Below are positions 34,331-52,123 of a DNA stretch of 64,000 bases, one piece after another. The number at the start of each line of letters is the position of its first letter. Positions within the stretch are counted from its first letter, which is position 1. The stretch is from positions 124,001-188,000 of the forward strand of contig NZ_JAFVMF010000009.1 in the NCBI RefSeq assembly GCF_017377715.1, written 5' to 3'. The position numbers and the translations under genes were made by a program. The DNA is from Acetobacter sacchari (GTDB lineage Bacteria; Pseudomonadota; Alphaproteobacteria; Acetobacterales; Acetobacteraceae). Below the pieces are notes generated by a model. It was not told where the DNA came from, ran no database searches, and saw only the letters and a program-made list of their open reading frames with translations.

Positions 34331-34415
34331 GTAATTGAGACCATAATAGTCTTGGGCGATCCTGTGAGCGAGGCATAACGTCGGCTCAGTCAAAATATCA
34401 AGCGGGCATGATCCT

Positions 34416-35543: not shown

Positions 35544-35553
35544 GGGCCAACAA

Positions 35554-35844
35554 ATGCTCTTTATGGTGGAAATGGACCTTTCAGTCCCATTAACGTTCGA
35601 TCAGAAAGAATTCGAACGTCTTAAGCTAACAGAAAAAAACCACTTCCAGGAATTGCAGCGTTCCGGAAAGTGGCGACATATCTGGCGCGTAACTGGTCAC
35701 TACGCAAATGTGAGCATTTTCGATGTTGATAATAATGCAGAACTTCACGACCTTCTCACAGGTTTGCCGCTTTATCCATTTATGACCATCAAGGTAACAC
35801 CACTGAATCGCCACCCATCTTCATTACACGATGATGATCGTTAA
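35554..35844 (+). CDS. catC: Muconolactone delta-isomerase
   Basis: A 96-residue CatC that isomerises muconolactone to 3-oxoadipate enol-lactone. It begins MLFMVEMDLSVPLTFDQ and has KWRHIWRVTGHYANVSIFDV and LLTGLPLYPFM, all typical. The ATG at 35554 follows a GAGGG element and lies 10 bases after catB. Length is standard for the decameric family. Confidence 0.96.
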   Translation: MLFMVEMDLSVPLTFDQKEFERLKLTEKNHFQELQRSGKWRHIWRVTGHYANVSIFDVDNNAELHDLLTGLPLYPFMTIKVTPLNRHPSSLHDDDR

Positions 35845-35898
35845 AATATATCTTCGCAAATAAAAATCACAAAAATTGAACAATAACAAAAAAAGGGC

Positions 35899-36831
35899 AT
35901 GACCATGACAGAGTTCACAAAATCCGTGGAAATCACAGAGTTCCTCGATCGGGTTTCCGGCCTGACAAATCCAGACGCCAAAGGCGATGAGAGAACGAAG
36001 AAAATTATCCGTAAGATTGTTGGAGATTTGTACGACACTATTGATACTTTCGATGTCACCGACGACGAATTCTGGCTGGCTCTGAACTTCCTTGCGGCGG
36101 GCTCGGGGGAAATCGGCCTGTGGGCCGCAGGACTGGGTTTCGAGCACTTTCTTGATCTGCGTGCGGACAGGAGGGACCGCGCGGCTGGAATTCCAGCGGG
36201 CACGCCGCGCACGATCGAAGGCCCCCTTTATGTCGCCGGGGCTCCCATCGTTGAGAGCGGCTCCCGCCTTGATGACGGCAGCGATCCAGGTGAGCAGATA
36301 ATTATGCATGGGCATGTAAGCGACACCAACGGAAAGCCGGTTACAAATGCGCTGGTGCATGTATGGCATGCCAACACCAAAGGAAATTACTCCTTTTTCG
36401 ATAAATCCCAGACAGATTTTAATATGCGCCGTCGCCTGAGAGTGGATGAAAACGGCGATTACATGTTTCACAGCATCATGCCGTCCGGTTATGCCTGTCC
36501 ACCCGGCGGCAGCACGGATACCATCCTGTCCGCCATCGGTCGACATGGCGAAAGGCCCGCACATATCCATCTTTTCGTTGAAGCTCCAGGATATCGACAG
36601 CTAACGACACAGATAAATATCGAAAATGATCCTTACATAAACGATGACTTCGCTTATGCGACACGGGACGAACTCATTCCGCCGATCATCCGGCACAGTA
36701 ACTCCGCAGATATCAGCGCTGCTGGACTTAACGAACCCTATGCTGAAATCAAATTTGATTTCGTCCTTACTCCTGCGCTTAACGAAGAGGAAGAGCACTT
36801 CTCCAGTCGTCCGCGCGTGATGGCTGACTGA
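35899..36831 (+). CDS. catA: Catechol 1,2-dioxygenase
   Basis: A 310-residue intradiol dioxygenase that opens catechol to cis,cis-muconate with non-heme Fe(III). The iron ligands are visible: Tyr in TKGNYSFFD, Tyr in MPSGYACPPGG, and two His in RPAHIHLFVEAPGY. The N-terminal helical dimer domain precedes TIEGPLYVAGAP. It sits between catC and benA in the same direction. Order catB-catC-catA-ben differs from the common catBCA-separate-from-ben layouts. Confidence 0.96.
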   Translation: MTMTEFTKSVEITEFLDRVSGLTNPDAKGDERTKKIIRKIVGDLYDTIDTFDVTDDEFWLALNFLAAGSGEIGLWAAGLGFEHFLDLRADRRDRAAGIPAGTPRTIEGPLYVAGAPIVESGSRLDDGSDPGEQIIMHGHVSDTNGKPVTNALVHVWHANTKGNYSFFDKSQTDFNMRRRLRVDENGDYMFHSIMPSGYACPPGGSTDTILSAIGRHGERPAHIHLFVEAPGYRQLTTQINIENDPYINDDFAYATRDELIPPIIRHSNSADISAAGLNEPYAEIKFDFVLTPALNEEEEHFSSRPRVMAD

Positions 36832-36906
36832 ACCATTCTCCAAAATAACAATAATAATACTCTCCAGAAACTCTGATTTCTGGTGGAATTTAGCGGGAGA
36901 AAAATC

Positions 36907-38289
36907 ATGCGCCATTCCCTTCTCGAACGGTTAGAAACATCTATCGTGGAAGACAAGGAGTCTGGAATATCCCGGTGCCGTCGCGATATCTTCACTGACC
37001 AGGATTTTTTTAATCTTGAAATGGAGCACATTTTCGAAGGTAATTGGGTTTACCTTGCGCACGAAAGTCAGATTTCCGACATAAACGACTATTTCACCAC
37101 GACAATTGGCCGCCAACCGGTCGTGATTACCCGTGACAAAACAGGCGAACTCCATGCTCATGTCAACGCATGCGCGCACCGTGGCGCCATGCTTTGTCGA
37201 CGCAAGCATGGCAACAAATCCAGTTTCACATGCCCATTCCATGGATGGACCTTCAATAACTCAGGGAAACTTTTGAAAGTAAAGGACGGAAAAACTGGTG
37301 GCTATCCAGAGATGTTTAATACCGCTGGATCTCACGACCTCGCCAAAGTACCCCAGTTCAAGAACTACCGCGGATTCCTATTTGGCAGCATGAAGGCCGA
37401 TATAGCTCCACTTGAAGATTATCTAGGCGCGACAAAAGTAATCATTGACCAAATCGTTGATCAGGCTCCTGAGGGAATCGAAGTTCTCCGAGGCAGTTCC
37501 TCTTACGTATTTGACGGAAACTGGAAGCTGCAGATCGAAAATGGCGCCGACGGCTATCACGTCAGTTCCGTGCATTGGAATTACGCCGCGACCATGGGAC
37601 GCCGAAACTATGAATCAGAGGGCACACGCGCTGTTGACGCCAATGGCTGGTCGCGAAGTGTAGGTGGAGTGTACGGATTCGAAAACGGACACATTCTGCT
37701 TTGGACCAAGCTTCTGAATCCTGAAGTAAGGCCAATTTATGGCCGCCGGGACGAATTGGCGCAGCGCGTTGGCGGTGAACGCGCGAAGTTCATTATCGAG
37801 CAGACGCGAAATCTGTGCTTGTATCCCAACGTCTACCTTATGGACCAGTTTTCGACCCAAATCAGGGTCGTTCGACCAATCAGCGTCGATAAAACTGAGA
37901 TAACGATCTATTGCTTCGCTCCAAAAGGTGAAAGCGCTGCGGATCGCGCCACACGTATCAGGCAATATGAAGACTTCTTCAACGTAAGCGGTATGGGCAC
38001 TCCCGACGATCTGGAGGAGTTCCGATCCTGTCAATCCTCTTATGCCAAAGGTAGCAACCTTTGGAATGATCTCAGCCGCGGCGCCACACGCTGGATCGAG
38101 GGCGCTGACGACAACGCACGTGAAATGGGTCTGAAGCCTCTCCTCAGCGGGACGCAGAGCGAAGACGAGGGTCTTTTTGTACGGCAACACGAGAATTGGG
38201 TGAAGGTGTTGCGTGAGGGGCTACTGCGTACAAGTAATAGCGAATACAATCCGACCATGCGGGCAGAAGTCGTGGGAAGCGTAACATGA
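36907..38289 (+). CDS. benA: Benzoate 1,2-dioxygenase large subunit
   Basis: A 460-residue alpha subunit of a Rieske non-heme iron oxygenase. The Rieske cluster ligands are in CAHRGAMLCRRK (CxH) and CPFHGW (CxxH). The mononuclear iron site is near NGADGYHVSSVHWNYAA (two His). ATG at 36907 has a GGGAG site. With benB and benC it would convert benzoate to the cis-diol carboxylate. Benzoate rather than toluate specificity is inferred from catA and benD nearby. Confidence 0.94.
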   Translation: MRHSLLERLETSIVEDKESGISRCRRDIFTDQDFFNLEMEHIFEGNWVYLAHESQISDINDYFTTTIGRQPVVITRDKTGELHAHVNACAHRGAMLCRRKHGNKSSFTCPFHGWTFNNSGKLLKVKDGKTGGYPEMFNTAGSHDLAKVPQFKNYRGFLFGSMKADIAPLEDYLGATKVIIDQIVDQAPEGIEVLRGSSSYVFDGNWKLQIENGADGYHVSSVHWNYAATMGRRNYESEGTRAVDANGWSRSVGGVYGFENGHILLWTKLLNPEVRPIYGRRDELAQRVGGERAKFIIEQTRNLCLYPNVYLMDQFSTQIRVVRPISVDKTEITIYCFAPKGESAADRATRIRQYEDFFNVSGMGTPDDLEEFRSCQSSYAKGSNLWNDLSRGATRWIEGADDNAREMGLKPLLSGTQSEDEGLFVRQHENWVKVLREGLLRTSNSEYNPTMRAEVVGSVT

Positions 38290-38774
38290 GCGGTGATTAC
38301 GAACAGGTTTGCGCCTTTCTTTATAAGGAAGCCCGCCTTCTCGATGATCGGCAGTGGGATGAATGGCTGACGTGTTATTCACCCACAGTTTCCTATTGGA
38401 TGCCTGCGTGGGACGACGATGACACTTTGGTGGAGGATCCCCAAAGCGAAGTCTCTCTAATTTATTATCCGAACCGGGATGGACTTGAAGATCGCGTGTT
38501 CCGCATCAAAACGGAGCGCTCGAGTGCCTCGACACCTGAGCCGAGGACCTGCCATTTCATTAGTAATATCGAAATTGTCGAAAAATCCGAAAAATCATTG
38601 AATGTGCGATATAACTGGCAGACGTTGAGCCATCGGTACAAGACAACTGACAGATTCTTTGGCTCGACGTCCTGCACCATTGATATGGATGGTAATTCGC
38701 CGCTCATATCAAAAAAAACGATTTTTTTGAAGGATGATTACATTCATCAGGTTATCGATATTTATCATGTCTGA
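38286..38774 (+). CDS. benB: Benzoate 1,2-dioxygenase small subunit
   Basis: A 162-residue beta subunit with the NTF2-like fold that stabilises the alpha3-beta3 oxygenase. Recognisable segments are LLDDRQWDEWLTCYSPTVSY then WMPAWDDDDTLVEDP and EVSLIYYPNRDGLEDRVFRI. It overlaps the benA stop by four bases (ATGA), so the subunits are translationally coupled. Confidence 0.95.
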   Translation: MSGDYEQVCAFLYKEARLLDDRQWDEWLTCYSPTVSYWMPAWDDDDTLVEDPQSEVSLIYYPNRDGLEDRVFRIKTERSSASTPEPRTCHFISNIEIVEKSEKSLNVRYNWQTLSHRYKTTDRFFGSTSCTIDMDGNSPLISKKTIFLKDDYIHQVIDIYHV

Positions 38775-38809
38775 GAACCGATTTTTGTTTGGTTCTGGCG
38801 GAGGGTCGT

Positions 38810-39826
38810 ATGAGCTATCGTGTCGCTCTGAATTTTGAAGATGGTGCTACGCGCATTATCGACTGCAAAGACGGTGAGAGGGTACTCGACGCAGCCTACC
38901 GTAATAAAATTAATCTCCCGATGGATTGTTCAGACGGCGTCTGTGGAACCTGTAAATGTCGTTGTGAGGAGGGCGAATATGAACTCGGTGATGAGTATAT
39001 CGAAGACGCGTTGACAGAAGATGAGGCGGCGGAGGGTTTAGTGCTCACCTGTCAGATGCTCATCTCGTCTGACTGCGTAATTTCGGTGCCGGCGCCGTCA
39101 TCCGCATGCAAAATCAAGGCTCAGGAATATGAAGCCGAGCTGAAGACAGTCGACCTTGTATCAGACAGCACTATTGTTCTGACGCTCGACCTCGCCGGAA
39201 AAGGCGAGCTCGATTTTCTGCCTGGACAATACGTCAACCTCAACGTTCCTGGAACAACGGAAACGCGTGCTTATTCCTTCAGTTCGCGTCCTCGTTCAGA
39301 CAGCGTGAGTTTTCTCATTCGCAATGTGCCTGATGGTCTGATGAGCCGCTGGTTGACTGACGAAGCCAAGCCCGGCGTGAAGATGCGTTTTGTTGGTCCC
39401 AATGGAAGCTTCTTCCTGCGGAAAGTGGAGCGACCAGTGATTCTCCTTGCGGGAGGCACGGGGCTCGCGCCAATGCTCTCGATGCTGGAAGTGCTTACCC
39501 GGAGTGAGTGTAATCACCCTGTCCATTTAATCTATGGCGTCAACCACGACGGCGATCTGGCCGAGCTGGAGCGAATTAAGACGCTTGCCGCCAATATTCC
39601 CGGTTTTACGTGGGATTGTGTTGTCGCCGACGAAAATAGCCACAACCCTCTGAGGGGATATGTGACGCATCATCTCGATGACGCGCGACTGAATGGTGGA
39701 GATTGCGACATCTACCTTTGCGGGCCGCCGCCTATGGTCGAAGCGGTTCGCGTTTTTCTTAAAAGGAAAAACGTCGAGCCAAGACATTTTTATTATGAAA
39801 AATTCGCGGCCAGTGAGGCTGTATGA
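38810..39826 (+). CDS. benC: Benzoate 1,2-dioxygenase electron transfer component
   Basis: A 338-residue reductase: an N-terminal plant-type [2Fe-2S] ferredoxin (CSDGVCGTCKCRCEEG, fourth Cys in LTCQM), an FAD domain (ETRAYSFSSRP) and an NADH domain (LLAGGTGLAPMLSMLE, ending in YLCGPPPMVEAV). It passes electrons from NADH to BenAB. ATG at 38810 follows a strong GGAGGG site, 35 bases after benB. Confidence 0.96.
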   Translation: MSYRVALNFEDGATRIIDCKDGERVLDAAYRNKINLPMDCSDGVCGTCKCRCEEGEYELGDEYIEDALTEDEAAEGLVLTCQMLISSDCVISVPAPSSACKIKAQEYEAELKTVDLVSDSTIVLTLDLAGKGELDFLPGQYVNLNVPGTTETRAYSFSSRPRSDSVSFLIRNVPDGLMSRWLTDEAKPGVKMRFVGPNGSFFLRKVERPVILLAGGTGLAPMLSMLEVLTRSECNHPVHLIYGVNHDGDLAELERIKTLAANIPGFTWDCVVADENSHNPLRGYVTHHLDDARLNGGDCDIYLCGPPPMVEAVRVFLKRKNVEPRHFYYEKFAASEAV

Positions 39827-40617
39827 GTATGATTTTTCAAGGACGCTTTACCGGCAAGGTTCTGGTAGTAACCGGCTCAGCGCAGGGCATCGGCCACGCT
39901 GTCGCTTCCCGGGCGGTGGCTGAAGGCGGGCAGGTAATGTTTGTCGATCGGGCAGATTTCGTTGACGAAGTTGCACGGTCCGCCGCTAGAGGGCAGGCTG
40001 GACGAACAGCATCCATATCTGTCGATATGGAAACGTGGAAAGGCGCGCAGGATGCTATGGAAGCAGCGCACATCGCCTTTGGGAAAATCGACATAGTTAT
40101 AAACGGCGTCGGCGGAGCTATTCGCATGCGCCCGTTCCATGCCTTCGAAGCAATTCAGATCGAGGCCGAGATTCGACGCTCCCTTATGCCAACGCTCTGG
40201 GGGTGTCACGCAGCTCTACCTTATCTTCTTCAAGGCGGAGGGGGCACCATCGTGAATATCTCCTCTAATGCGACGCGCGGCATTCACCGCGTCCCCTACT
40301 CCGCAGCCAAAGGCGGAGTTAATGCCCTGACAGCGAGCCTGGCAATGGAATATGCAGAATCGAATATTCGCATCGTCGCGGCCGCCCCGGGCGGCACGGA
40401 AGCTCCGCCGCGCCGCATCCCGCGTAACCCGGGTGGAGACACGCCGCAGGAGCAGGTCTGGATGGACGAAGTCGTCGAGCAAGTCAAAGACTCTACATTT
40501 CTGAAACGTTACAGTACGATTGAAGAGCAGGCGGCCCCAATTCTATTTTTGGCGTCCGACGAGGCATCCTACATTACGGGATCGGTTCTGCCTGTAGCTG
40601 GAGGTGACCTAGGATGA
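39823..40617 (+). CDS. benD: Benzoate cis-diol dehydrogenase
   Basis: A 264-residue classical SDR, 1,6-dihydroxycyclohexa-2,4-diene-1-carboxylate dehydrogenase, which oxidises and decarboxylates the diol to catechol. The NAD motif is VTGSAQGIGHAVASRAV, the catalytic Tyr-Lys pair lies in VPYSAAKGGVNALTAS, and the C-terminus ends YITGSVLPVAGGD. It overlaps benC and pcaD by four bases each. Confidence 0.94.
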   Translation: MSMIFQGRFTGKVLVVTGSAQGIGHAVASRAVAEGGQVMFVDRADFVDEVARSAARGQAGRTASISVDMETWKGAQDAMEAAHIAFGKIDIVINGVGGAIRMRPFHAFEAIQIEAEIRRSLMPTLWGCHAALPYLLQGGGGTIVNISSNATRGIHRVPYSAAKGGVNALTASLAMEYAESNIRIVAAAPGGTEAPPRRIPRNPGGDTPQEQVWMDEVVEQVKDSTFLKRYSTIEEQAAPILFLASDEASYITGSVLPVAGGDLG

Positions 40618-41396
40618 ACCGTAAATTTCTCACAATGGGCGACGGTTGCAGCATCGCGTACACGCAGAACGGGGACCAAAAAGCGGAACCTCTGTTTTTA
40701 TCGAACTCTCTCGGCACCAGCCTGGATATGTGGAACCCGCAAATAGCCCGACTTTCGGAGCAATTTCACGTTATCCGCTATGATACGCGTGGGCACGGCA
40801 AGTCAGACGTTCCTGTAGGCTCCTATAGTCTCGATCGACTGGGGCGGGACGTGCTTGAACTCGCCGATGCGCTCGAGATTCAACAGTTCTCTTTTTGCGG
40901 TTTATCACTCGGCGGAATGACAGCTCAATGGCTGGGCGTTCGGTCCCCTGAGCGGCTCAAGCGCATCGTCATTGCAAACTCCTCACCGTATATGGGGCCG
41001 CCATCAGCCTGGGATGCTCGCATTCGTACTGTGCTGAATGCGGGAATGAGCCGGATCGCGGAGGCCGTGGTTGAGCGCTGGTTCACACAAGAGTTTCGCA
41101 ATAACCGCGACAACACCAAATTCGTCCTCGATATGCTGTTACACACGAACGCGACAGGATATGCAGGTTGCTGCGCCGCAATCCGCGATATGGATTTGCG
41201 ACCGTTGCTCCCTCTCATCAGGACGCCGACCCTCATTATTGGTGGAACCGAAGATCCAGCGACGCCGCCCGAGCAGACTTATGAATTGCGCGACGGCATC
41301 CGCAGTGCGAGATGTGCAATGCTTGAGGCGGCGCATCTTTCGAATATTGAAAAGCCGCTTGAATTCACGGATCTCGTGATAAGTCATCTTGTCTAA
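40614..41396 (+). CDS. pcaD: 3-oxoadipate enol-lactonase
   Basis: A 260-residue alpha/beta hydrolase that opens 3-oxoadipate enol-lactone to 3-oxoadipate. The nucleophile elbow is FCGLSLGGMTAQWLG, the Asp region GGTEDPATPPEQ, and the His region LEAAHLSNIEKP. It is the last gene of the operon and links CatC to PcaIJ. It overlaps benD by four bases. Confidence 0.94.
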   Translation: MNRKFLTMGDGCSIAYTQNGDQKAEPLFLSNSLGTSLDMWNPQIARLSEQFHVIRYDTRGHGKSDVPVGSYSLDRLGRDVLELADALEIQQFSFCGLSLGGMTAQWLGVRSPERLKRIVIANSSPYMGPPSAWDARIRTVLNAGMSRIAEAVVERWFTQEFRNNRDNTKFVLDMLLHTNATGYAGCCAAIRDMDLRPLLPLIRTPTLIIGGTEDPATPPEQTYELRDGIRSARCAMLEAAHLSNIEKPLEFTDLVISHLV

Positions 41397-41423
41397 GTTC
41401 ATTAAAAATAAAGGAGAATTTAT

Positions 41424-41450
41424 ATGCGTGCACAAACGACAATAGTTTAA
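41424..41450 (+). other. Eight-codon mini-ORF with strong ribosome binding site
   Basis: AAGGAG stands 7 bases before an ATG that opens only MRAQTTIV followed by TAA. It lies 27 bases after pcaD in the same direction. It could be the surviving start of a deleted ninth gene, for example a benzoate uptake gene, or a leader peptide. The strong signal with almost no frame is the reason for listing it. Confidence 0.4.
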
Positions 41451-41816
41451 AAAATACCAAAAAAAAATAGAGATATTTCTGAAATATGACCTCCAATCAT
41501 GTTCACTTTAGGTAAACAGCTTCCTTCAACTATGCAGTTCGTCATTGGGGCCGAAACCCCCATAACGTTTCAACGTTGGAAACGTGAACTGTGTAAAGTA
41601 TATCGATTCACAAATATGATGTCGCTCAGAAGGTGATAATCGTCCAACCCTGACGCGTCACGGTACATTACAACAGCGCCACAAACGCTCACTCGTTAGT
41701 TCGTCAGTCGGCGTAGTTCACTCACATTTTTTCACCTCGCGAGGTTTTAATTAAAAATTCTTCCAAAATTCGCATTTCTATTACTACAAAATAACTAAAG
41801 AACCGACCTCAGTTAT
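41451..41816. other. Convergent spacer after pcaD with two hairpins
   Basis: About 370 bases between the catabolic operon and metR. It has GGGG-CCGAAA-CCCC (41547-41560) and a 7-base-arm hairpin ACGTTTC/GAAACGT (41565-41571/41579-41585) around an AACGTTG loop. Neither is followed by a T-run on the plus strand. The right end is AT-rich. No gene was seen. Confidence 0.4.
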
Positions 41817-42707
41817 CTAAAAGGATGAACCCGCGAATTCGATAAAATCTCCCACATATTGAATCTCTTCATCAGTCTCACGACAGCCAAGAAATATTTG
41901 CTTCGCGATGCCATTTTTACCGAGTTTTATAGTGCAAAGTCCAAAACGTAATGCGTATTCTTCTGCTAACCACCGGGGGAGCGCTGCGACACCCCGGCCA
42001 TGCGCTACCATCACCAGCATAATATCAGTCGTCTCTATCTGCTTCTGCTGTCGCGGGGCGATGCCCGCCGGCTGAAGAAATTGTGTATATATATCAAGGC
42101 GTTCAGTCGGAACCGGGTAAGTTATTAACGTTTCGCCCGCCAACTGCTCTGGCAAGACAAATTTTTCATCCCCCAGCGGGTGTCCACTCCCAACAACCAG
42201 CACAAGCTCGTAGTCAAAGACAGGAGTAAATTTCAGGCCTGGTTTATAAAGTGGGTCAGGCGTAACCAGAATATCAATTTCGTTGCTGAAAAGCGCGCCA
42301 ATTCCACCAAACTGAAACTTTTGCCGTACATCAACATCGACTTTCGGCCACCGCTCCAGATAAGGGGATACGACTTTGAGGAGCCACTGGTAGCAGGGAT
42401 GACACTCCATCCCAATGCGTAATGTACCACGCTCACCATTTGCGAATTGCTCTAAGCGATTTTCCGCCAGTTCAAACTGGGGTAGCAACCGATTCGCCAA
42501 TGACAGCAGCCACTCCCCCGCTTGAGTAAGCGCCAGAGATCGGCCTTCCCGCCGCCATATCTTCACGCCAAGCTGGCGTTCTATCTTGCGGATCGCATGG
42601 CTGAGAGCTGGCTGGGTCAGATGCAGACGCGCCCCGGCAGCCGTCAGTGATCCCTCTCGCGCAACTTCCTGAATAATTATCAGATGACTACGCTCAAGAA
42701 CACTCAT
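41817..42707 (-). CDS. metR: MetR-like LysR regulator
   Basis: A 296-residue LysR protein with unmistakable MetR features: GSLTAAGARLHLTQPALSHA in the helix-turn-helix, LRIGMECHPCYQWLLKVVSP, QKFQFGGIGALF, LVTPDPLYKPGL and IETTDIMLVMVAHGRGVAAL. MetR activates methionine synthesis genes with homocysteine as coregulator. ATG at 42707 has a GGAG site. It lies on the same strand as mesX and mesD but separated from mesD by 860 bases of decayed-looking sequence. Confidence 0.92.
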   Translation of the reverse strand: MSVLERSHLIIIQEVAREGSLTAAGARLHLTQPALSHAIRKIERQLGVKIWRREGRSLALTQAGEWLLSLANRLLPQFELAENRLEQFANGERGTLRIGMECHPCYQWLLKVVSPYLERWPKVDVDVRQKFQFGGIGALFSNEIDILVTPDPLYKPGLKFTPVFDYELVLVVGSGHPLGDEKFVLPEQLAGETLITYPVPTERLDIYTQFLQPAGIAPRQQKQIETTDIMLVMVAHGRGVAALPRWLAEEYALRFGLCTIKLGKNGIAKQIFLGCRETDEEIQYVGDFIEFAGSSF

Positions 42708-43566
42708 GCGGGACTCCAAAATGCACAAAATTCATGTGATCATTAAAATATATCATTTCACCTCATTCTTCAAAGCTCCTATCGTCGCCGCCAGCATAAA
42801 TTATCCGGATTTTCACCTTTGATAGCGAACGATGATGCCTGATCTTACGCAAGACGAAGGGATTGGAGGTCCCAAGGAGACGGTTACTCCCGTCTCGAAG
42901 AACAGCGCTGAGAAAGAGCACGCTGCGTCGGCCCGGACATGCGATACCACACCTCAGGACGGCATTCCTGACCCTGAAAGCGGATTCGAATGTCCGTGCT
43001 GTGTAATGCCGTGGTTCCGGTAACCGAGAAAATCTTCAATTCAGGCATTGATTGCACGGCATACAACGCAGCCCGAGCGGCAGCATCTTCCGCGACACCA
43101 CTTTCCGTTCCCACCAAGAAGAAAAGGCGCTCCCTACTTTGCATTGTTTGAAAATGTACAATTTTTAACTACGGACGATCAAAACGTCGAAGCGTTTGAA
43201 CATATCCACTGCTTCACCAACTCTCATTATGGATGCGGCAACGGATATTGAGCGACCCTCTATAGTGAAGGTGCGCATTTGCGCATGCCTTTGGCGCTTA
43301 TAGCCCCAAACACACAACGCATTTCCGATCTGGAAAGCGTAAAATGGACGCTCGACCGCACGCGTGATCTGGAAAAAAAAATTAACCCACTATACTCGTG
43401 TAGTTATATTTCGTTCAAAGTAACAAAAGTGGTAGGTCGTTCGCTTTCTCGAGGACTCTGGCATCAAAAGATAGGACAGAATCGACGTGAGCGCTCGCGT
43501 CGTGAGCGCTCTGCCGACGCCGTCTTCTCAACTCATCATCGATCACTGTCCCGGCCACGCGCTCGA
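42708..43566. other. Spacer between metR and mesD, probably remnant sequence
   Basis: About 860 bases. The minus strand at 42,884-43,144 has an open frame (LFFLVGTESGVAEDAAARAA in part) without convincing homology. Repeats include TGCGCA-TT-TGCGCA (43272-43285) and two copies of the palindrome GAGCGCTC (43489-43496, 43504-43511) that can pair with each other just downstream of mesD. A functional gene could not be supported. Confidence 0.4.
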
Positions 43567-44595
43567 TCAGGCTGAAAGCTCTCTTCGAACGATTTCAGCA
43601 CCAGCGCTTAGCGCATGAAGCTTGCCGCGTGCTATCTTCCGTGGCAAAGGAGCCATGCCGCAGTTAGTGCAAGGATAAAGTTTGTCAGCATCTACAAACT
43701 TCAATGCTTTTCTCAAGATATCAGCGACCCTTTCCGGCGTTTCAATGGCGTTCTTCGCCACATCAATGGCGCCGACCATTACTTTTTTACCCCGGATAAG
43801 CTCTATCAGATCCATTGGAACGCGAGAGTTCTGGCATTCCAATGAAATCAAATCGATAGAGGATTTCTGCAGCTTCGGAAAAATTTCTTCATACTGCCTC
43901 CACTCTGCCCCCAGCCCCTCTTTCCAGTCTATATTAGCCTTGATACCGTAACCGTAGCAGATATGAACTGCCGTTTCGCATTTAAGTCCTTCAATGGCTC
44001 GCTCCAGCGTGGCGATGCCCCAGTCATTGACCTCGTCGAAAAAAACATTGAATGCAGGTTCATCAAACTGAATAATATCGACACCGACGCTCTCCAGTTC
44101 TCTCGCCTCTTGATTAAGGATTTTGGCGAATTCCCACGCCAGCTTTTCTCTACTTTTATAGTGACCGTCATAGAGAGTATCGATCATGGTCATCGGACCA
44201 GGCAGCGCCCATTTGATTGGCTTTTTTGTGAGCCCGCGTAAAAACTTCGCGTCCTCGACGAAAACGGACTTTTCGCGCACCACAGCGCTCACAACCGACG
44301 GCACGCTGGCATCGTAGCGATTCCGAATTTTGACCGTCTGTCGATTTTCAAAATCAACGCCGCTAAGGTGCTCGATGAATGTCGTCACAAAATGCTGACG
44401 CGTCTGTTCGCCGTCGCTGACGATATCAATTCCTGCACGATCCTGATCATCCAGTGTCAGACGCAAGGCGTCCTGCTTGCCCTCGTGCAGTTCTTCCCCC
44501 TGCAATTTCCATGGCGACCAGAGCGTCTCAGGCTGAGCAAGCCAGGACGGCTTCGGAAGACTGCCAGCGGTGGAGGTTGGGAGCAATTTTTTCAT
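43567..44595 (-). CDS. mesD: MesD-type core methionine synthase
   Basis: A 342-residue protein equivalent to the C-terminal catalytic half of MetE, without the N-terminal folate-binding half. It begins MKKLLPTSTAGSLPKPSWLA. Zinc-type ligands are in ETAVHICYGYG (His, Cys), SLECQNS and YPCTNCGMAPLP (Cys). Such MesD proteins methylate homocysteine independently of methyl-folate together with MesX (DUF1852), as reported by Price and colleagues; the methyl donor was unclear. Its gene lies 28 bases after mesX. Confidence 0.9.
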   Translation of the reverse strand: MKKLLPTSTAGSLPKPSWLAQPETLWSPWKLQGEELHEGKQDALRLTLDDQDRAGIDIVSDGEQTRQHFVTTFIEHLSGVDFENRQTVKIRNRYDASVPSVVSAVVREKSVFVEDAKFLRGLTKKPIKWALPGPMTMIDTLYDGHYKSREKLAWEFAKILNQEARELESVGVDIIQFDEPAFNVFFDEVNDWGIATLERAIEGLKCETAVHICYGYGIKANIDWKEGLGAEWRQYEEIFPKLQKSSIDLISLECQNSRVPMDLIELIRGKKVMVGAIDVAKNAIETPERVADILRKALKFVDADKLYPCTNCGMAPLPRKIARGKLHALSAGAEIVRRELSA

Positions 44596-44623
44596 AAGAG
44601 GTGACCTTGTACTGTTCGTGGAA

Positions 44624-45607
44624 TCAAGCGGCATAATTTGCGGACCACGCCTCAAGAATTTCTCGGTACGGCTTGATAAGGCCTTGTTCCGTATATTTAC
44701 CCTGCGCTACCGCCAGTCGATTGCGCTCCTCCCGGTCATAGACGATGCGGGTTACGGAATAATCCTGATGCTTCAAGCTTGGCTGATAGCAATCAGACGC
44801 CGCGGAGTTGGCATTGTAGATTTCAGGACGATAAATCTTCTGAAAAGACTCCATAGTGCTGATGGTGCCGATAAGCTCCAGAGCGGAATAATCAGAAAGA
44901 AGGTCGCCAAAAAAGTAGAAGGCCAGCGGTGCAACGCCACCGGTCGGCATAAAATAGCGAACCTGCATTCCCATTTTCTTGAAATATTGATCCGTCAGAG
45001 AAAATTCATTCTGCTGATACTCCGCGCCCAGAACAGGGTGCTTATTTCCAGTTCGGGAATAGGTTTTGTTGCTCGAAACACTGAGGCATATTACAGGACG
45101 CTTACCAAAGTTTTTTTTATACGCCGACGAATTCACCGCGCACTTAAACAGATTTCCGTGCAGAGCTCCATAATCGGCCGGAACGACAAATTCTTTTTTA
45201 TTTTCATTGTATTTCAACAACAAAACACTGAAATCGTAATCCCTTACGTAGGAAGAAAAATTATTGCCTGCGACGCCGGCAATACGTTTATTATCTTTTT
45301 TATCGACAATCGTCGTATTCAAAATCTCGATCAACGGAAAACGATCACCCTTGTCCGTCGAGTCGATATCCATCTCAACGGAGACGATCTCAATCTCGAC
45401 GGAATAGCGATCTCCATTCGGATTATCCCAATGGGCCAAGTCGTTGAAACGATTGTCAATCATTCGCAGGACGTTACGCAAATTCTCCTGACGACTGTCC
45501 CCTCTAGCCAGATTAGCAAAGTTGGTCGTGAGACGCGTGTTGTCAGAGGGACAATAATCCTCATCAAAACAAAGTCGCCTTACATAAAAAGATGAATCCT
45601 GAATCAT
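44624..45607 (-). CDS. mesX: MesX (DUF1852), partner of MesD
   Basis: A 327-residue DUF1852 protein with the strongly conserved blocks SDNTRLTTNFANLARGDSRQ, ALRM-like LRMIDNRFNDLAHWDNPNGD, GNNFSSYVRDYDFSVLL, MESFQKIYRPEIYNANSAAS and the tail LEAWSANYAA. MesX is required for MesD activity in bacteria tested, in an apparently oxygen-dependent process of unknown chemistry. ATG at 45607 follows AAGG; GTG at 45622 is an alternative. It is the first gene of mesX-mesD. Confidence 0.9.
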   Translation of the reverse strand: MIQDSSFYVRRLCFDEDYCPSDNTRLTTNFANLARGDSRQENLRNVLRMIDNRFNDLAHWDNPNGDRYSVEIEIVSVEMDIDSTDKGDRFPLIEILNTTIVDKKDNKRIAGVAGNNFSSYVRDYDFSVLLLKYNENKKEFVVPADYGALHGNLFKCAVNSSAYKKNFGKRPVICLSVSSNKTYSRTGNKHPVLGAEYQQNEFSLTDQYFKKMGMQVRYFMPTGGVAPLAFYFFGDLLSDYSALELIGTISTMESFQKIYRPEIYNANSAASDCYQPSLKHQDYSVTRIVYDREERNRLAVAQGKYTEQGLIKPYREILEAWSANYAA

Positions 45608-45952
45608 CGAAGCCTTCGTCACATCAACTGTTAAGCGGTCATGCTTATTTTATGCCCGATCAGTCGAGTGAACGAAAATGATTTGATTTCATAAATACAT
45701 AAATTCTGCTCATACAGAAGCGGTGACGCTGCGTATTGAGTGAGCTTCATGATTCGTCGTGATGATTCCCCCTGAGGCGATGACGTATCAGGTCGACTGC
45801 CGACACAGGGAGGCTAATGACGGCTTCCAAAAAGGCACATGGCAACTTTAGGCGCTAGGTTGAGGATGAATTTCCACTAGCTACAAAGAAAAACGGCGAC
45901 CTGTCGGCCGCCGCTTCCACACTCGATATCCCGTTAGAGAGACTGGATCAGA
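45608..45952. promoter_or_regulatory. mesX promoter region and right edge of the low-GC block
   Basis: About 345 bases. Two near-matches to the MetR box TGAA-N5-TTCA lie at 45679-45691 and 45737-45749, one mismatch each on the mesX strand. The part from 45,770 to 45,880 has a short frame (MTASKKAHGNFRR) that looks like debris. Base composition rises from here into the YceI gene. Confidence 0.45.
45886..45913 (-). terminator. Intrinsic terminator after the YceI gene
   Basis: Read on the minus strand, the sequence at 45913-45894 folds as CGGCG-g-CC-gaca-GG-t-CGCCG and is directly followed by GTTTTTC. It lies 40 bases after the YceI stop codon. This is a canonical factor-independent terminator. 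Confidence 0.75.
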
Positions 45953-46561
45953 TTAGTTCTGCTTCTCGAACGCGCCCGCGATGGACAGGGTCACGTCGTC
46001 ACCAACCATCGGAACGTATTTCGACACGCCGAAATCGCTGCGCTTGATAACCCCGGTCGCCTGGAATCCGATCGTATACGCCTTGTCCATCGGGTTTACG
46101 CCGGCGCCGATGAACTGCGCCTGCAAAACGACGGGCTTCGTGACGCCGTGCAAGGTAAGATCGCCGCTGATCGTCGCGTGTCCTGCGTCGGTCGCGGTGA
46201 CGCTTTTGGAGGTGAACGTCGCGGTCGGGTAGCGCGCGGCGTCGAACCAGTCGGGTTCTTTCAACTCGCCAGTCAGCACGTCGCTGGTCGTCGCAACGCT
46301 GGAGATCGGCAGGCTGACCGTCAGCTTCGTAGCGGCCAAATGGGCCGGATCGATCTTCAACGAGCCAGAAGCGCCTGAAAACATTCCCGAATACTGAGTG
46401 AACCCGAAATGCAGCAGCGAGAACGTGACCTCCGTGTGGCCGGGTTCGACCTTATATTCGCCCGCCTGAATTCCCTGAGCCGTCGTTTCGGCCCGAGCCG
46501 AAGAAATGAACGCAGCGGCGGCCAAAGCGGCGACAGTCGAAGTCATAAGACGCGTTTTCAT
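45953..46561 (-). CDS. YceI family periplasmic protein
   Basis: A 202-residue protein with a Sec signal peptide (cleavage near SARAE, about 24) and a YceI lipocalin-like domain: GEYKVEPGHTEVTFSLLHFG, then WFDAARYPTATFTSKSVTAT and LTLHGVTKPVVLQAQFIG. Relatives bind isoprenoid-like lipids and respond to base or stress; the function here is not known. It has its own terminator downstream and lies 79 bases after the dioxygenase gene. Confidence 0.92.
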   Translation of the reverse strand: MKTRLMTSTVAALAAAAFISSARAETTAQGIQAGEYKVEPGHTEVTFSLLHFGFTQYSGMFSGASGSLKIDPAHLAATKLTVSLPISSVATTSDVLTGELKEPDWFDAARYPTATFTSKSVTATDAGHATISGDLTLHGVTKPVVLQAQFIGAGVNPMDKAYTIGFQATGVIKRSDFGVSKYVPMVGDDVTLSIAGAFEKQN

Positions 46562-46640
46562 AAACTCTCTCTTTCATTGCCAATGTGGCGTCGCCCGATC
46601 AGGGCGATCGTCGGCGCGCCCTCGCGCCGACGGAAACTGT

Positions 46641-47456
46641 TCAGCCGAAGCGAAAACCGGACATAGCCTTTCCCATGACGACGTCGCTGTAATCGCGCTT
46701 GCCAAGATCCGCGCCCGCAGCGCCAGCTGCGAACATCAGCGGCAACAGATGTTCCTCACGCGGGTGGCACTGCCGGGCGCCCGGCGCGGCCTCCCAACGC
46801 AATAACGCAGCATTCCGTTCCTCCGGCTCCGCCTCGACCGCCTTGGCCAGCCAGGCGTCGAAGGCTTGCGACGCGTCCGCTGACAACGGATCCGACTGCC
46901 GGAACTGCCGCAGGTTATGGTACGTCATCCCGGTAGCCACGATCAGCACATTATCGTCACGCAGGGATTGCAGCGCCGCGCCGATGCGAACCTCTTCCGC
47001 GGCGCTCATATCCTCCCGAAGCGACAGCTCGACGACGGGGATATCGGCATCGCCAAAGGCGAGCAAAAAAGGAATGAACACGCCGTGATCGAAACCCCTC
47101 TCGGGGTCTTCGTCATTTGCGATTCCGGCGGCGGACAGAAGCGACCGGACCTGCGCTGCAAGTTCGGGCGATCCCGGCGCGGGATATTGCAGATGATACG
47201 TATGCTCCGGAAATCCGTAGTAATCGTAAATCAACGGAGGCGCCGCGCTGGAGGTCACCGTCGGCCGCTCGGTTTCCCAATGCCCGGAGACGACCAGTAT
47301 CGCGCGCGGACGCTGCGGCAGGGTTGCAGCCAGCCCGCGCAGATAAGCCGCCATACGATCCCATATGACCGGCTGGTCCATGAAGAAACATGGTCCCCCG
47401 CCATGGGGCGCAAACAAAACGGGTTGCCGGGCTGGCGTGGTGGTCGAAGCCGTCAT
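46641..47456 (-). CDS. DODA-type extradiol aromatic ring-opening dioxygenase
   Basis: A 271-residue YgiD/LigB-family protein. Motifs include LFAPHGGGPCFFMDQ (metal His), AILVVSGHWETERPTV, RGFDHGVFIPFLLAFGDADI and ATGMTYHNLRQF, with the C-terminal HPREEHLLPLMFAAGAAG. It would use a divalent metal to open catecholic rings such as DOPA. ATG at 47456 has an AGGTG site. It is divergent from a LysR gene that probably controls it. It lies outside the low-GC block. Confidence 0.88.
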   Translation of the reverse strand: MTASTTTPARQPVLFAPHGGGPCFFMDQPVIWDRMAAYLRGLAATLPQRPRAILVVSGHWETERPTVTSSAAPPLIYDYYGFPEHTYHLQYPAPGSPELAAQVRSLLSAAGIANDEDPERGFDHGVFIPFLLAFGDADIPVVELSLREDMSAAEEVRIGAALQSLRDDNVLIVATGMTYHNLRQFRQSDPLSADASQAFDAWLAKAVEAEPEERNAALLRWEAAPGARQCHPREEHLLPLMFAAGAAGADLGKRDYSDVVMGKAMSGFRFG

Positions 47457-47569
47457 CGGCGTCACCTTTTGTCGTCGAAACACGGCGCGATCTTGCCGCT
47501 ACGACCGCCAGACGATAATCCCCTGTTCAGGACGTTCATATAACACTCCTGGTGTGAGATACTCCCCCG

Positions 47570-48532
47570 ATGCTTGATCGCGTCACCGGAATGCAGACAT
47601 TCGTTCGCGTCGTCGCTGACGGCAGCTTCGCCGCAGCCGCTCGGTCGCTCGGCATGTCGCAGACAATGGTGACGAAGCACATTGCAGCGCTGGAGGCGCG
47701 CCTGGGTGTCGCCCTGTTTCAGCGCAGTACGCGTCGCCTTTCCCTGACGGAGGCCGGACGGCGCTTTCTTGATGGGTGCCAGCGCATTCTCCCGGCACTG
47801 GACGACGTCGAACAGGCAGTCGCCGTCGATGCGCAGGAGCCCCGCGGCACGCTCAGACTCAACGCGCCGGTCTCGTTCGCCATTCGCTACGTTGCGCCGC
47901 TGCTCTCGGGATTTAGCGAGCGTTATCCGCTCGTGACCGTTGATCTTGGGCTGGACGACCGCACTGTGGATCTGATCGAAGATGGATGGGATCTTGCCCT
48001 GCGCATCCGGCGTATGGCGCCGAGCAGCCTGCGGGCGCGCAAGCTCGCATCAATCCGCATGGTCGTCTGCGCCGCGCCGTCGTACCTTGCGCGACACGGC
48101 ACACCCACGACGGTCGCCGACCTGCAGCGCCATGCCTGCCTCGGGTATACGCTCAGTGACGCAGTCGGCACGACGCGATGGAGCTTCGGGGAAAAAGGCG
48201 AAAGAACGGCTCCGATCCGCTGCCCCCTGGTGGCCAATAATGGCGACGCCCTGCGAGAAGCCGCTATCGTCGGTCAGGGGATTATCTACCAGCCAACGTT
48301 CATTGTGGCAGACGCTCTGCGCTCCGGCGCGCTTGTGACGCTGGCGTTCGACTCGCCACTGCTTGAAGCGTCGCAGTTGCATGCGGTTTACGCGCCGACC
48401 CCGACCGTGTCCCTCAAGGTCCGGGCGATGATCGATTATCTGGCGGAGCGATACGGCGCCGAGCGATACGGCGGGGTCCCTCCCTGGGAGGAGGGGCTAC
48501 CCCCTCCCCTCGCCGCAGGCGCGACGGTCTAG
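47570..48532 (+). CDS. LysR family regulator
   Basis: A 320-residue LysR-type regulator. The helix-turn-helix is MQTFVRVVADGSFAAAARSL then GMSQTMVTKHIAALEARLGV. The effector domain includes ALRIRRMAPSSLRARKLASI and LREAAIVGQGIIYQPTFIVA, as in regulators of small redox enzymes. It is divergent from the DODA-type dioxygenase gene, with a 113-base spacer, so that gene is the likely target. The effector is unknown. Confidence 0.9.
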   Translation: MLDRVTGMQTFVRVVADGSFAAAARSLGMSQTMVTKHIAALEARLGVALFQRSTRRLSLTEAGRRFLDGCQRILPALDDVEQAVAVDAQEPRGTLRLNAPVSFAIRYVAPLLSGFSERYPLVTVDLGLDDRTVDLIEDGWDLALRIRRMAPSSLRARKLASIRMVVCAAPSYLARHGTPTTVADLQRHACLGYTLSDAVGTTRWSFGEKGERTAPIRCPLVANNGDALREAAIVGQGIIYQPTFIVADALRSGALVTLAFDSPLLEASQLHAVYAPTPTVSLKVRAMIDYLAERYGAERYGGVPPWEEGLPPPLAAGATV

Positions 48533-48661
48533 GCAGGCATCCGCTCACTTCGGTGCGTGTAACGCCTCTCGCGCGTTACTTTGATGAGCGCCTTCTTTCC
48601 AGAATGCGCTTGCCCGGAGGATGACGACCTGGAGGGCGCGTCAAGCCGGTGACGATCCGGC

Positions 48662-49045
48662 TTATTGCAGATCCTCGGGAGCGAGGCGCTGCACCCGGAT
48701 CGCGCGTCCTGCCGCGTCGTAATAGATGACGCTCTCGCCCCGGCGCTGCGCGTAACCGTCGGGTTTTCCATCCGGCGTCCAGAACAGGAGCCGGTCGAGA
48801 TCCGGCTGCTCCTGCACGCGATCACCGTGCGGGCGATAGAGGTAGTGACTGTAATCCTTGTGGACCGGCGGCGCTGATGGATGCGCGGCGAGTTGATGCA
48901 TGTCCGGCCCCTTGTGTTCGTCCGGATCAGCGTCCTGCGCGGACGCGAACGACGGAGCGGCGAGAAGAGCCAGCGCGAAGCCCGCAGCAAGGCGGGTTGA
49001 AAGCGTCCGGAGTCCGTATCCGCGTAGCCTGTTGGACGTGACCAT
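48662..49045 (-). CDS. Uncharacterised secreted protein
   Basis: A 127-residue protein with an N-terminal signal peptide (hydrophobic about 20-36, cleavage near SFASA) and a hydrophilic mature part containing HKDYSHYLYRPHGDRVQEQP, DLDRLLFWTPDGKPDGYAQR and SVIYYDAAGRAIRVQRL. I do not recognise the family. The frame chosen is the only one with a signal peptide; two overlapping open frames have no coding character. It is a lone gene. Confidence 0.6.
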   Translation of the reverse strand: MVTSNRLRGYGLRTLSTRLAAGFALALLAAPSFASAQDADPDEHKGPDMHQLAAHPSAPPVHKDYSHYLYRPHGDRVQEQPDLDRLLFWTPDGKPDGYAQRRGESVIYYDAAGRAIRVQRLAPEDLQ

Positions 49046-49329
49046 GTTCGTAAACCATCTCCCAAACGCTGCGCATATTTACCGTGCGGAGCGCAATCCA
49101 ACGCGTTTTCCCAAGTTTCATCCGCCTGCGCAACACGAGCAGGTGTTACATTATACGTCATTTTAGGCGCTTCACGCCGCCCCCCCTCCTGTGGCTAAAT
49201 AAAAACGATTTTATATCGTGGTTTTCGGAGATAACGACGGGGCTTGCTGATATTTAGCGCCACGTAGTAGGGTATATTGCGTATACCACCGTAAAATACG
49301 GTAATATTGAAACCTATGAAGCCGGGCCA
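49046..49329 (+). promoter_or_regulatory. Promoter region of the sulfate uptake operon with two palindromes
   Basis: It contains GGTATA-TTGCG-TATACC (49271-49287) and ACCGTA-AAA-TACGGT (49288-49302), two perfect inverted repeats back to back, 28 bases before the sbp start codon. They look like binding sites for a dimeric repressor or activator of sulfur genes. The octamer GTATATTG of the first site occurs again at 53224-53231, upstream of the DUF2849-cysI genes. Confidence 0.6.
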
Positions 49330-50364
49330 ATGACGTCATCCTCGCCGCTCACCCTCACCCGCCGCACGCTCTTCGGCGCCGCGGCGGCATGCGCCGCTCT
49401 GGCCGCCATTGGACGCGGACGCAAAGCCAGCGCCGCTCAGGCGCTGCTCAACGTGTCGTATGACCCGACCCGCGAGCTTTACGCCGACATCAACCGCGCA
49501 TTCGCGGCCCAGTGGGCCTCCACGCATGGCGGCAGCGCCCTTGCGGTCCGCACATCCAACGGCGGTTCCGGCGCGCAGGCCCGCTCGGTCCTTGAAGGTT
49601 CGCCCGCCGACGTGGTGACGCTGGGCCTCGCTTATGACGTCGACATGCTGGCGGCGCACGGCCTTCTGGCGACGAATTGGCAGACGCGACTGCCGCACAA
49701 TTCCACGCCGTTCACCAGCACGATCGTGTTCCTGACGCGCAAAGGGAACCCTAAGGGAATCCACGGCTGGGCCGATCTGGTCCGTGACGGCGTGCAGGTC
49801 GTGACCCCGAATCCGAAAACTTCCGGCGGCGCACGCTGGAACTACCTTGCCGCATGGGGCTGGGCGCTGCGTCAACCGGGCGGGACCGAGGATACGGCCC
49901 GCGCCTACCTCAAATCACTGTTCGCTCATGTGCCCGTGCTCGACGCCGGGGCGCGGGGCGCGACCAACAGCTTCGTGCAGCGAGGACTGGGCGACGTTCT
50001 TCTCGCGTGGGAGGACGAGGCGCTGCTCGCAGCGCGCGACCTCGGGCCGGATAAATTCGACATCGTCGTTCCCGACCTGACCATCCTTGCTGAGCCCCCG
50101 GTCGCACTGGTCGACAAGAATGTGGACGCCCACGGCACACGGGAGGCGGCGCAGGCCTATCTCGAGTTCCTTTATACGCCCGAGGCCCAGAAAATCGGCG
50201 CCAAGCATTACTTTCGCCCGGTCGACCCAACTGCGGCGGCAGAAAGCGCGTCGATCTTCCCTGCGGTGAAGACGTTCGACATCGCCAGTCTCGGCGGCTG
50301 GACCGCCGTGCAGAAAAAGCATTTCGCAAGCAGCGGCGTCTTCGATCAGATTTACAGTAAATGA
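49330..50364 (+). CDS. sbp: Sulfate ABC transporter substrate-binding protein
   Basis: A 344-residue periplasmic protein that delivers sulfate to CysTWA. The signal is twin-arginine like (TRRTLFGAAAACAALAA). The Sbp family shows as LLNVSYDPTRELYADINRAF, then VVTPNPKTSGGARWNYLAAW and VLLAWEDEALLAARDLG, which form the sulfate site. It overlaps cysT by four bases. Confidence 0.93.
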   Translation: MTSSSPLTLTRRTLFGAAAACAALAAIGRGRKASAAQALLNVSYDPTRELYADINRAFAAQWASTHGGSALAVRTSNGGSGAQARSVLEGSPADVVTLGLAYDVDMLAAHGLLATNWQTRLPHNSTPFTSTIVFLTRKGNPKGIHGWADLVRDGVQVVTPNPKTSGGARWNYLAAWGWALRQPGGTEDTARAYLKSLFAHVPVLDAGARGATNSFVQRGLGDVLLAWEDEALLAARDLGPDKFDIVVPDLTILAEPPVALVDKNVDAHGTREAAQAYLEFLYTPEAQKIGAKHYFRPVDPTAAAESASIFPAVKTFDIASLGGWTAVQKKHFASSGVFDQIYSK

Positions 50365-51254
50365 ACCTGTCCGCGACGCTTTCTCCTACGCGTGAGCCTT
50401 CGACGCTGCACGCGAAGGGACGACGCGCGCGCGATCCATTGCCGGGGTTTCGCCTTGCGCTGGGCGCGACTCTGCTGTGGCTGGGCCTGATCGTCGTCCT
50501 TCCACTTGCCGCGCTGGCGGTACGACCCTGGCAAGAAGGCGCATCGGCGATGCTCGCTGCGCTCAACGACGGGCGCATGTTCGCAGCGCTTCGGGTCAGC
50601 TTCCAGTCCGCCGTGCTCGCCGCCATTCTGGATCTGCCGCTCGGCCTGATTCTGGCCTGGGCGCTGGTGCGAACGCGCCTGCCGGGACGACGCCTGATCG
50701 ACGCGCTGATCGACCTGCCGTTCGCGATCCCCACAGCAGTCACCGGCATTACCCTCGCAACCTTATACAGCCCGCAAGGCTGGTTAGGCGCGCCGTTATC
50801 ACGGCTGGGAATCAGCGTCGCCTACAGCGTGACGGGCATCGTCGCAGCCCTGATGTTCGTGGGGTTGCCCTTCATCGTTCGCAGCGTCGAACCCGTGCTG
50901 CGCGATCTACCGTCGGAGCTTGAGGAAGCCGCGACGCTATTGGGCGCCAGGCCCTGGCAAATCGTGGCGCGGGTGCTGACGCCCGCTCTTCTTCCCTCGC
51001 TGATCAGTGGCTTCGGCCTCGCCTTCGCCCGTGGTATCGGCGAATATGGCTCGGTGATCTTCATCGCAGGCAACCAGCCGTTTCGCAGCGAAATCGCACC
51101 GCTTCTTGTCGTCGTGCGGTTGCAGGAATTCGACTACGCAGGGGCGACCTCGATCGCTTTCATTCTGCTTGTAGCCTCATCGGCGTGCCTCGCCGCGGTA
51201 GCCATGCTGCGCAGGCGGGCCGCACGCGGGCTGGTCGCGGAGGGCGCGGCGTGA
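50361..51254 (+). CDS. cysT: Sulfate ABC transporter permease CysT
   Basis: A 297-residue inner-membrane permease with six predicted helices. The ATPase-contacting EAA loop is EEAATLLGARPWQIVARVLT and the helix-loop RGIGEYGSVIFIAGNQPFRS is specific for CysT/CysU. It pairs with CysW. Overlaps occur with sbp before and cysW after. Confidence 0.95.
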   Translation: MNLSATLSPTREPSTLHAKGRRARDPLPGFRLALGATLLWLGLIVVLPLAALAVRPWQEGASAMLAALNDGRMFAALRVSFQSAVLAAILDLPLGLILAWALVRTRLPGRRLIDALIDLPFAIPTAVTGITLATLYSPQGWLGAPLSRLGISVAYSVTGIVAALMFVGLPFIVRSVEPVLRDLPSELEEAATLLGARPWQIVARVLTPALLPSLISGFGLAFARGIGEYGSVIFIAGNQPFRSEIAPLLVVVRLQEFDYAGATSIAFILLVASSACLAAVAMLRRRAARGLVAEGAA

Positions 51255-52123
51255 ACGCGCTCGCACCATCCTCACCGGACAACGCTCGCCGTTCGCCCGC
51301 CGAGATCGCGCTAATCGCCGCAGCCTACGCGATCGTGGGGCTGATGCTCGTCCTGCCGCCCGTCCTGGTCTTCACCGAGGCGCTGCGCTCCGGGTTGGGC
51401 GCCGCGCTGGCGAGCATCACGGATCCCGACGCCCTCTCCGCCATCAAGCTGACGTTGGAAATGACGGTCGCCGCCGTAGCCATCAACACCAGCTTCGGCG
51501 TTCTCGCCGCATGGCTGTTGGCGAAATACCGCTTTCCGGGACGTAGCGTTCTTGTCGCGCTGATCGAAATTCCGATCAGCGTGTCGCCAGTGGTCGCGGG
51601 GCTGGTATGGCTGCTGCTGTTCGGGACGCAGGGTTGGTGGGGAGAGGCCCTGAACAGGGTCGGAATCACCATCGCCTTCGCTACGCCGGGCATCCTTCTC
51701 GCGACCCTGTTCGTCACCTTCCCTTTTGTGACCCGCACCCTGCTGCCGTTGATGGAACAACAGGGCCGCGACGCGGAGGAGGCCGCCACGCTGCTGGGAG
51801 CGTCTTTCTGGCGCATTCTTTGGGGCGTCACGCTGCCGGAAGCACGCTGGGCGCTGCTTTCGGGGGGGTTGCTGACGACCGCCCGCGCGATGGGCGAGTT
51901 CGGCGCAGTTTCGGTGGTCTCGGGCCATATACCGGGCCTTACGGAAACGATGCCGCTGCACATCGAAACACTTTACAATGGTTACCAGAGCGTCGCCGCC
52001 TTCAGTATGGCGGCGCTTCTCGCCATCATGGCGATGGCGACCGTCGGCATGCGCTCGCTGTTCGAAGCCCGGATGCGACGCGAAGAACCACGCAAGGCTG
52101 AAACCGCTGGAGGCGGCGCATGA
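51251..52123 (+). CDS. cysW: Sulfate ABC transporter permease CysW
   Basis: A 290-residue permease partner of CysT. The EAA loop is EEAATLLGASFWRILWGVTL, and MGEFGAVSVVSGHIPGLTET and LPLHIETLYNGY-like residues at the end are typical. GTG at 51251 overlaps the cysT stop by four bases, which decides the start over a longer open frame. Confidence 0.94.
   Translation: MNALAPSSPDNARRSPAEIALIAAAYAIVGLMLVLPPVLVFTEALRSGLGAALASITDPDALSAIKLTLEMTVAAVAINTSFGVLAAWLLAKYRFPGRSVLVALIEIPISVSPVVAGLVWLLLFGTQGWWGEALNRVGITIAFATPGILLATLFVTFPFVTRTLLPLMEQQGRDAEEAATLLGASFWRILWGVTLPEARWALLSGGLLTTARAMGEFGAVSVVSGHIPGLTETMPLHIETLYNGYQSVAAFSMAALLAIMAMATVGMRSLFEARMRREEPRKAETAGGGA

Follow-up and report, generated by a model that had tools for sequence, protein, structure and literature searches.

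The minus-strand locus at 41817–45607 of a 64,000-nucleotide stretch of Acetobacter sacchari DNA (contig NZ_JAFVMF010000009.1, positions 124,001 to 188,000; hereafter the window) raises the question of whether it encodes a methionine synthase working without folate, and what such an enzyme would do beside MetH. An earlier note, made from the sequence alone, had described a DUF1852 gene (mesX) followed by a gene for a MetE C-terminal half (mesD), with metR nearby. It is very probable that the locus encodes a MesX–MesD methionine synthase, independent of folate and cobalamin, together with a MetR-type activator, and this system probably provides an aerobic backup for MetH under B12 shortage. We infer the function and the MetR control in this organism, as well as the chemistry.

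The gene pair was borne out by profile searches, in which both open reading frames (ORFs) were full-length. PF08908 (DUF1852) matched the mesX ORF end to end (profile 1–323 of 323) with 592 bits (E 3.2e-178; cutoff 25), and PF01717 (Meth_synt_2) was the sole Pfam match of the mesD ORF (E 3.5e-34). MesD, a protein of 342 amino acids whose gene is adjoined by mesX, showed no match to the N-terminal (folate) domain of MetE and scored 687 bits against NF006589 (cutoff 392) and 647 bits against PDB 3rpd, the MesD structure cited by Price 2021 (PMC7857596). With the MesD of Acinetobacter baylyi DSM 14961 as query, the window protein reached 648.9 bits, which is over the threshold of 560 bits to A. 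baylyi MesD given in Price 2021, where the query was ACIAD3523 of strain ADP1. The alignment with Acinetobacter that the earlier note had proposed gave 82% identity for MesD and 68% for MesX. The four zinc ligands (H211, C213, E253, C312) and three substrate residues (S12, E63, D178), taken from Price 2021, were present in the window MesD and invariant among the seven MesD compared; E63 was placed by alignment with 3rpd and the other six by alignment with MetE, S12, E63 and D178 sharing one numbering offset, and the motif offset for E484 pointed two residues further.

MesX of the window was 68–98% identical to the MesX of 80 loci, which are the best 80 of 585 confirmed MesX loci in genome_contigs; the nearest among the matches listed were those of Acetobacter sp. 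DsW_063 (98%) and Acetobacter nitrogenifigens (89%). Across the 81 sequences, H150 and H190 were the sole invariant histidines and C174 the sole invariant cysteine, with E196 six residues past H190; as a guess, a 2-His-1-carboxylate iron site would fit this pattern. Among solved structures, the search for distant MesX relatives returned a single match at E 0.23, which is not credible. A second type of MesD was seen in four loci (L026, L041, L088 and L099), being 54–56% identical to the window MesD and scoring 419–430 bits to that of A. baylyi; it is paired with an ordinary MesX and with a LysR 67–70% identical to that of the window.

The genome (4.55 Mb, 99.7% complete) contained one PF08908 and one PF01717 match, both at this locus. 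Since the only PF01717 match is this mesD, no metE was found in the genome by profile search; metH is intact (1172 amino acids), the TGA counted in its match being its own stop codon. The search for metE and metH suggested earlier thus left MetH as the accompanying enzyme. A CbiC gene on the contig that carries mesXD, a single marker of cobalamin synthesis, hints at cobalamin synthesis. In the systems of A. baylyi and S. koreensis described in Price 2021, mesX and mesD likewise lie in tandem, the zinc and homocysteine residues are the same and MetH is also present in the genome; according to that paper, both S. koreensis genes and aerobic conditions are needed, and MetF and cobalamin are dispensable. 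B12 is reported to lower expression of the DUF1852 gene strongly in two Acinetobacter baumannii strains (log2 -8.3 and -8.1; PMC12892962), which is in line with a backup role of MesXD. In air, MesXD probably serves as a reserve for MetH. Bacteria also appear to escape nitrous oxide through MesD (PMC13059711).

In the proposed scheme, accumulation of homocysteine would cause the regulator bound upstream of mesX to switch on mesX and mesD. MesX would use O2, perhaps along with reduced flavin supplied from elsewhere, to produce a methyl donor from some metabolite, and MesD, holding homocysteine as a zinc thiolate, would take the methyl group to give methionine, so that MesXD could back up MetH in air under B12 shortage.

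The distribution of the system was examined in a census of 37 genomes of the genus, including the window's own, among 61 genomes per search; the other 24 belong to other genera of the class. MesX was found in 23 of the 37 and in none of the 24; its match was in pieces in three of the 23 (G005, G010 and G030), and in G010 mesD was in pieces as well. MetH occurred in 36 of the 37 (none in G020). Full-length metE was present in two (G002 and G015), never together with MesX, numbers too small to mean much.

The best NCBIfam match of the LysR-type regulator was MetR (NF011950), with 214 bits against an equivalog cutoff of 382, and the gene is therefore termed MetR-like and not MetR by sequence. In G002, an 88% identical LysR orthologue is divergent from an intact metE of 758 amino acids, 112 bp apart; metR and metE are often divergent, as described in Leyn 2014 (PMC4239095). 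Because of this arrangement, and because MetR-like sites precede mesX, the LysR probably acts as a MetR. A LysR at least 85% identical occurred in 24 of the 37 genus genomes, namely 21 of the 23 with MesX plus G002, G008 and G031; in G031, mesD stands at a contig end and MesX was not matched. The two MesX genomes without it were G003, where the mesX contig ends early, and G033, with a LysR of 55% identity. Among the 80 loci, 36 had a LysR at least 49% identical near mesX; in the Acetobacteraceae it was at least 84% identical in 12 of 14 loci. The metR gene of the earlier note is hence upheld by linkage and by predicted sites, and falls short of the family cutoff.

The palindrome TGAAN5TTCA was scanned for within 250 bp ahead of the mesX match in 81 loci and was found exactly in 24 and with at most one mismatch in 68. 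In 200 dinucleotide shuffles, the mean counts were 0.9 exact and 15.6 within one mismatch (maxima 4 and 25). For eleven alternative orders of the half-sites, the counts did not exceed 1 exact and 17 within one mismatch, and at two control places 0 exact sites and 7 within one mismatch were counted among 79 sequences, and 0 and 7 among 78. As the 81 mesX sequences are kin, these counts are not independent. The two predicted sites of the window start 21 bp apart. When 17 Acetobacteraceae sequences were compared, the block of best conservation ahead of mesX spanned two imperfect sites, including site 2. The block upstream of metE in G002 equalled the mesX consensus at 30 of 46 positions, the best of 1000 mononucleotide shuffles reaching 26. 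Riboswitch control was considered and set aside, as nothing in the window matched Rfam at the gathering score and four weak matches near the locus (E 0.6 to 3) were of unrelated kinds.

A MetR link for this gene pair is not new in kind. The passages of Leyn 2014 on the MetR regulon describe PF08908-metE2 as a well-conserved MetR target with the consensus ATGAA-N5-TTCAT, predicted in 2014, and the window likewise has predicted, imperfect palindromes of MetR type upstream of such a pair. By that account, MetR occurs in the beta- and gamma-proteobacteria, with the Rhodobacterales as its sole alpha-proteobacterial group; the MetR-like gene of the window differs in lying in an Acetobacteraceae genome, which extends that prediction. 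In our literature search, PF08908 was named in the Price and Leyn papers only and no paper was found with both MetR and MesD as whole words; a search for Acetobacter, MetR and methionine returned nothing on this subject, judged by titles.

Several observations weigh against this assignment. Besides the score of the LysR below the NF011950 cutoff, no LysR was matched in 38 of the 80 loci within the sequence examined, and in six the match was weak or partial. Of the candidate sites of the window, one has a single mismatch and the other two, and just one of the 17 Acetobacteraceae sequences has an exact site. No flavin reductase was detected near mesXD in the 14 Acetobacteraceae loci with three queries, and paper searches, with no wider search, found no expression or biochemical data for this organism. 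As for the flavin reductase, the same queries matched in 43 of the 80 loci, many at 25–28% identity, and in Price 2021 the enzyme is described as often near MesD/MesX, and it counts as an accessory and not a defining feature; four PF01613 genes are located on other contigs of this genome, where FMN_red-type genes were not searched. The window differs from the systems of that paper in having no adjoining flavin reductase and having the MetR-like gene and a small ORF of 63 amino acids linked instead. With no flavin reductase linked here, Acetobacteraceae strains would suit studies of the methyl donor and of what, if anything, reduces MesX.

Table 1. Positions of the genes and predicted sites of the mes locus in the window.
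Feature	Position	Strand	Remarks
mesX (DUF1852, PF08908)	44624–45607	-	Full-length ORF; putative oxygenase, thought to feed a methyl group to MesD
mesD	43567–44595	-	Full-length ORF; zinc-dependent core methionine synthase
metR-like LysR regulator	41817–42707	-	From ATG; the longest ORF begins at TTG 42728
Predicted MetR site 1, upstream of mesX	45700–45712	-	TGAGCAGAATTTA, 2 mismatches to TGAAN5TTCA
Predicted MetR site 2, upstream of mesX	45679–45691	-	TGAAATCAAATCA, 1 mismatch to TGAAN5TTCA
ORF of 63 amino acids	42832–43023	+	C-terminus CPCCVMPWFR; divergent from the metR-like gene; in the mesD–metR gap

MesXD might also be the sole working methionine route, the canonical metF being missing and MetH left without a methyl donor. 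This is unlikely, though several findings speak for it: the only methylenetetrahydrofolate reductase (MTHFR) match in the genome is a protein of 261 amino acids at 25–26 bits, several relatives, unlike the window, have a canonical metF between mesD and metR, and 69% of the proteomes with MesD only seem to be without MetF (Price 2021). On the other side, a similar weak, short MTHFR-like protein, often below the Pfam cutoff, occurred in 25 of the 37 genus genomes, compared with 36 for MetH and 13 for canonical MetF. Of the genus genomes with MetH, twelve lack both MesX and full-length MetE (G031 among them, with a piece of mesD); seven of these have the short protein and two a canonical MetF, so that MetH may draw on the short protein. 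No MTHFR match was obtained in three of the twelve (G007, G012 and G027), which tempers this argument and leaves the point unsettled.

The metF gene beside mesD in relatives could alternatively be explained if MesD used methyl-tetrahydrofolate after all, and such an arrangement was seen in Novacetimonas, A. malorum, three Gluconobacter and six further stretches. We regard this as scarcely credible in view of the rescue of an Escherichia coli metF deletion by mesX plus mesD of S. koreensis reported in Price 2021, the missing match to the N-terminal MetE domain in the window MesD and the lack of metF at the window locus. A role of the LysR in controlling the neighbouring benzoate genes or another target, with its position beside mesXD due to chance, is very improbable. 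For this reading, the ben-pcaD genes end 420 bp away from it and its score is below the MetR cutoff; against it, the LysR travels with mesXD across genera and on plasmids, adjoins metE in G002 and also occurs in A. nitrogenifigens, which has no ben genes at that place. The preferred reading, a MesX–MesD synthase with a MetR-type activator, places a known system in acetic acid bacteria as a unit that moved together with its probable regulator. In G002, metE has an orthologous regulator and a similar operator, which suggests that chemically different methionine synthases can be swapped under the same control.

Within the locus, mesX and mesD are in tandem, the mesD ATG lying 28 bp past mesX (longest ORFs 44624–45622 and 43567–44655), and a gap of 838 bp, which contains the small ORF, separates mesD from the metR-like gene. 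In the relatives named above, metF fills this space on the opposite strand, often accompanied by queH and an ORF of about 60 amino acids (in several relatives in the order metF-queH-small ORF); the identity of metF and queH was confirmed by family search in Novacetimonas only. The window gap retains only the small ORF, metF and queH being absent from this locus. Four cysteines and a tryptophan of the small ORF (C37, C54-P-C-C57, W61) are invariant in 15 Acetobacteraceae sequences, and it had no Pfam or NCBIfam match. A hidden Markov model (HMM) built from 15 ORFs of this kind matched 10 of the 61 genomes, all with mesD; eight of the ten had supplied rows of the HMM, only G006 and G011 being new, and the G011 ORF is a short piece with a stop; in A. 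nitrogenifigens the ORF looks frameshifted. Since the small ORF is adjoined by metF, queH or both in eight of these ten genomes, it is more likely a companion of metF and queH than of MesXD. Between the window and DsW_063, three synonymous and five non-synonymous codon changes were counted, with no sign of purifying selection at that range. It is distinctly improbable that this cysteine protein is an as yet unrecognised partner, for metal or redox purposes, of folate-independent methionine synthesis, retained although its usual neighbours are absent. In-situ replacement of metE by mesXD beside metF was also considered and dropped, because the PF01717 piece in G031 is a mesD cut by the contig end and not a metE remnant; true metE remnants adjoin metF in two genomes: in G003 they stand apart from the mesXD of that genome, and G028 is without MesX.

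Acquisition of the module by transfer, as proposed earlier, was supported by composition, by grouping in the MesX tree and by plasmid copies, but the module is old in the clade of the window. Its GC content is low (mesX 45%, mesD 50%, metR-like gene 51%; GC at third codon positions 0.50–0.55) compared with 60–66% (0.70–0.78) in four genes tested on one flank, within 45953–50364, and 62% in metH; benA, on the other flank, is likewise low at 51%. In a quick MesX tree of 83 rows, mostly best matches to the window, the 17 Acetobacteraceae rows grouped (SH-aLRT 98) inside a group of 38 rows (87), of which the other 21 were mostly gamma-proteobacteria; nine Rhizobiales and kin fell outside. A MesX match was present in 209 of 72,556 plasmid records, some of them megabase-sized, and among 2.9 million viral contigs scanned, two loci with MesX were confirmed. 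A conjugative-type plasmid of A. pasteurianus and another of A. ascendens carry mesX-mesD-lysR in the same gene order as the window (LysR 88%, MesD 91–93% and MesX 76–80% identical), with insertion sequence elements nearby; the window module, unlike these, is on a 196-kb contig in a stretch colinear with A. nitrogenifigens. Over 9.8 kb, the locus was 93.7% identical to DsW_063 and, colinear, 88.8% to A. nitrogenifigens; G011, taken to be A. nitrogenifigens, was 90.5% identical over 18 kb.

The setting beside aromatic catabolism stood in so far as ben genes adjoin the module. Window 33.5–41.8 kb (33523–41813, ben/pca genes) had no match in G011, of which 39.8 kb was compared. As A. nitrogenifigens lacks the ben stretch at the corresponding place, the aromatic surroundings seem incidental to the module and separate from it. 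The adjacent window segment 29071–33522 is inverted in A. nitrogenifigens relative to its flanks.

Upstream of mesX follow a YceI gene, a LigB gene, another LysR and then sulfate/sulfite genes; a few genes from mesX, 49330–55502 holds sulfate ABC transporter genes and a nitrite/sulfite-reductase-type gene. For the methionine salvage genes mtnBDC claimed earlier, support was obtained for mtnD, through an ARD match at 5315–5857, and for mtnC, through a fitting HAD hydrolase at 5854–6564. Some plasmids and contigs have, near mesX, a Rieske gene whose product contains a VanA-type demethylase domain and might supply one-carbon units; it is found in L024 (6124–7218), L033, L034 and L042, with a fragment in L023.

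Komagataeibacter rhaeticus and Gluconobacter potus (L033 and L034, 1–8016) share 8,016 bp at 100% identity across mesX, and the identity stops inside mesD, seven codons before its end; this is either a recent transfer or contamination. L098, titled Bacillus subtilis, carries a MesX nearly the same as that of Pseudochrobactrum asaccharolyticum and is probably mislabelled or contaminated.

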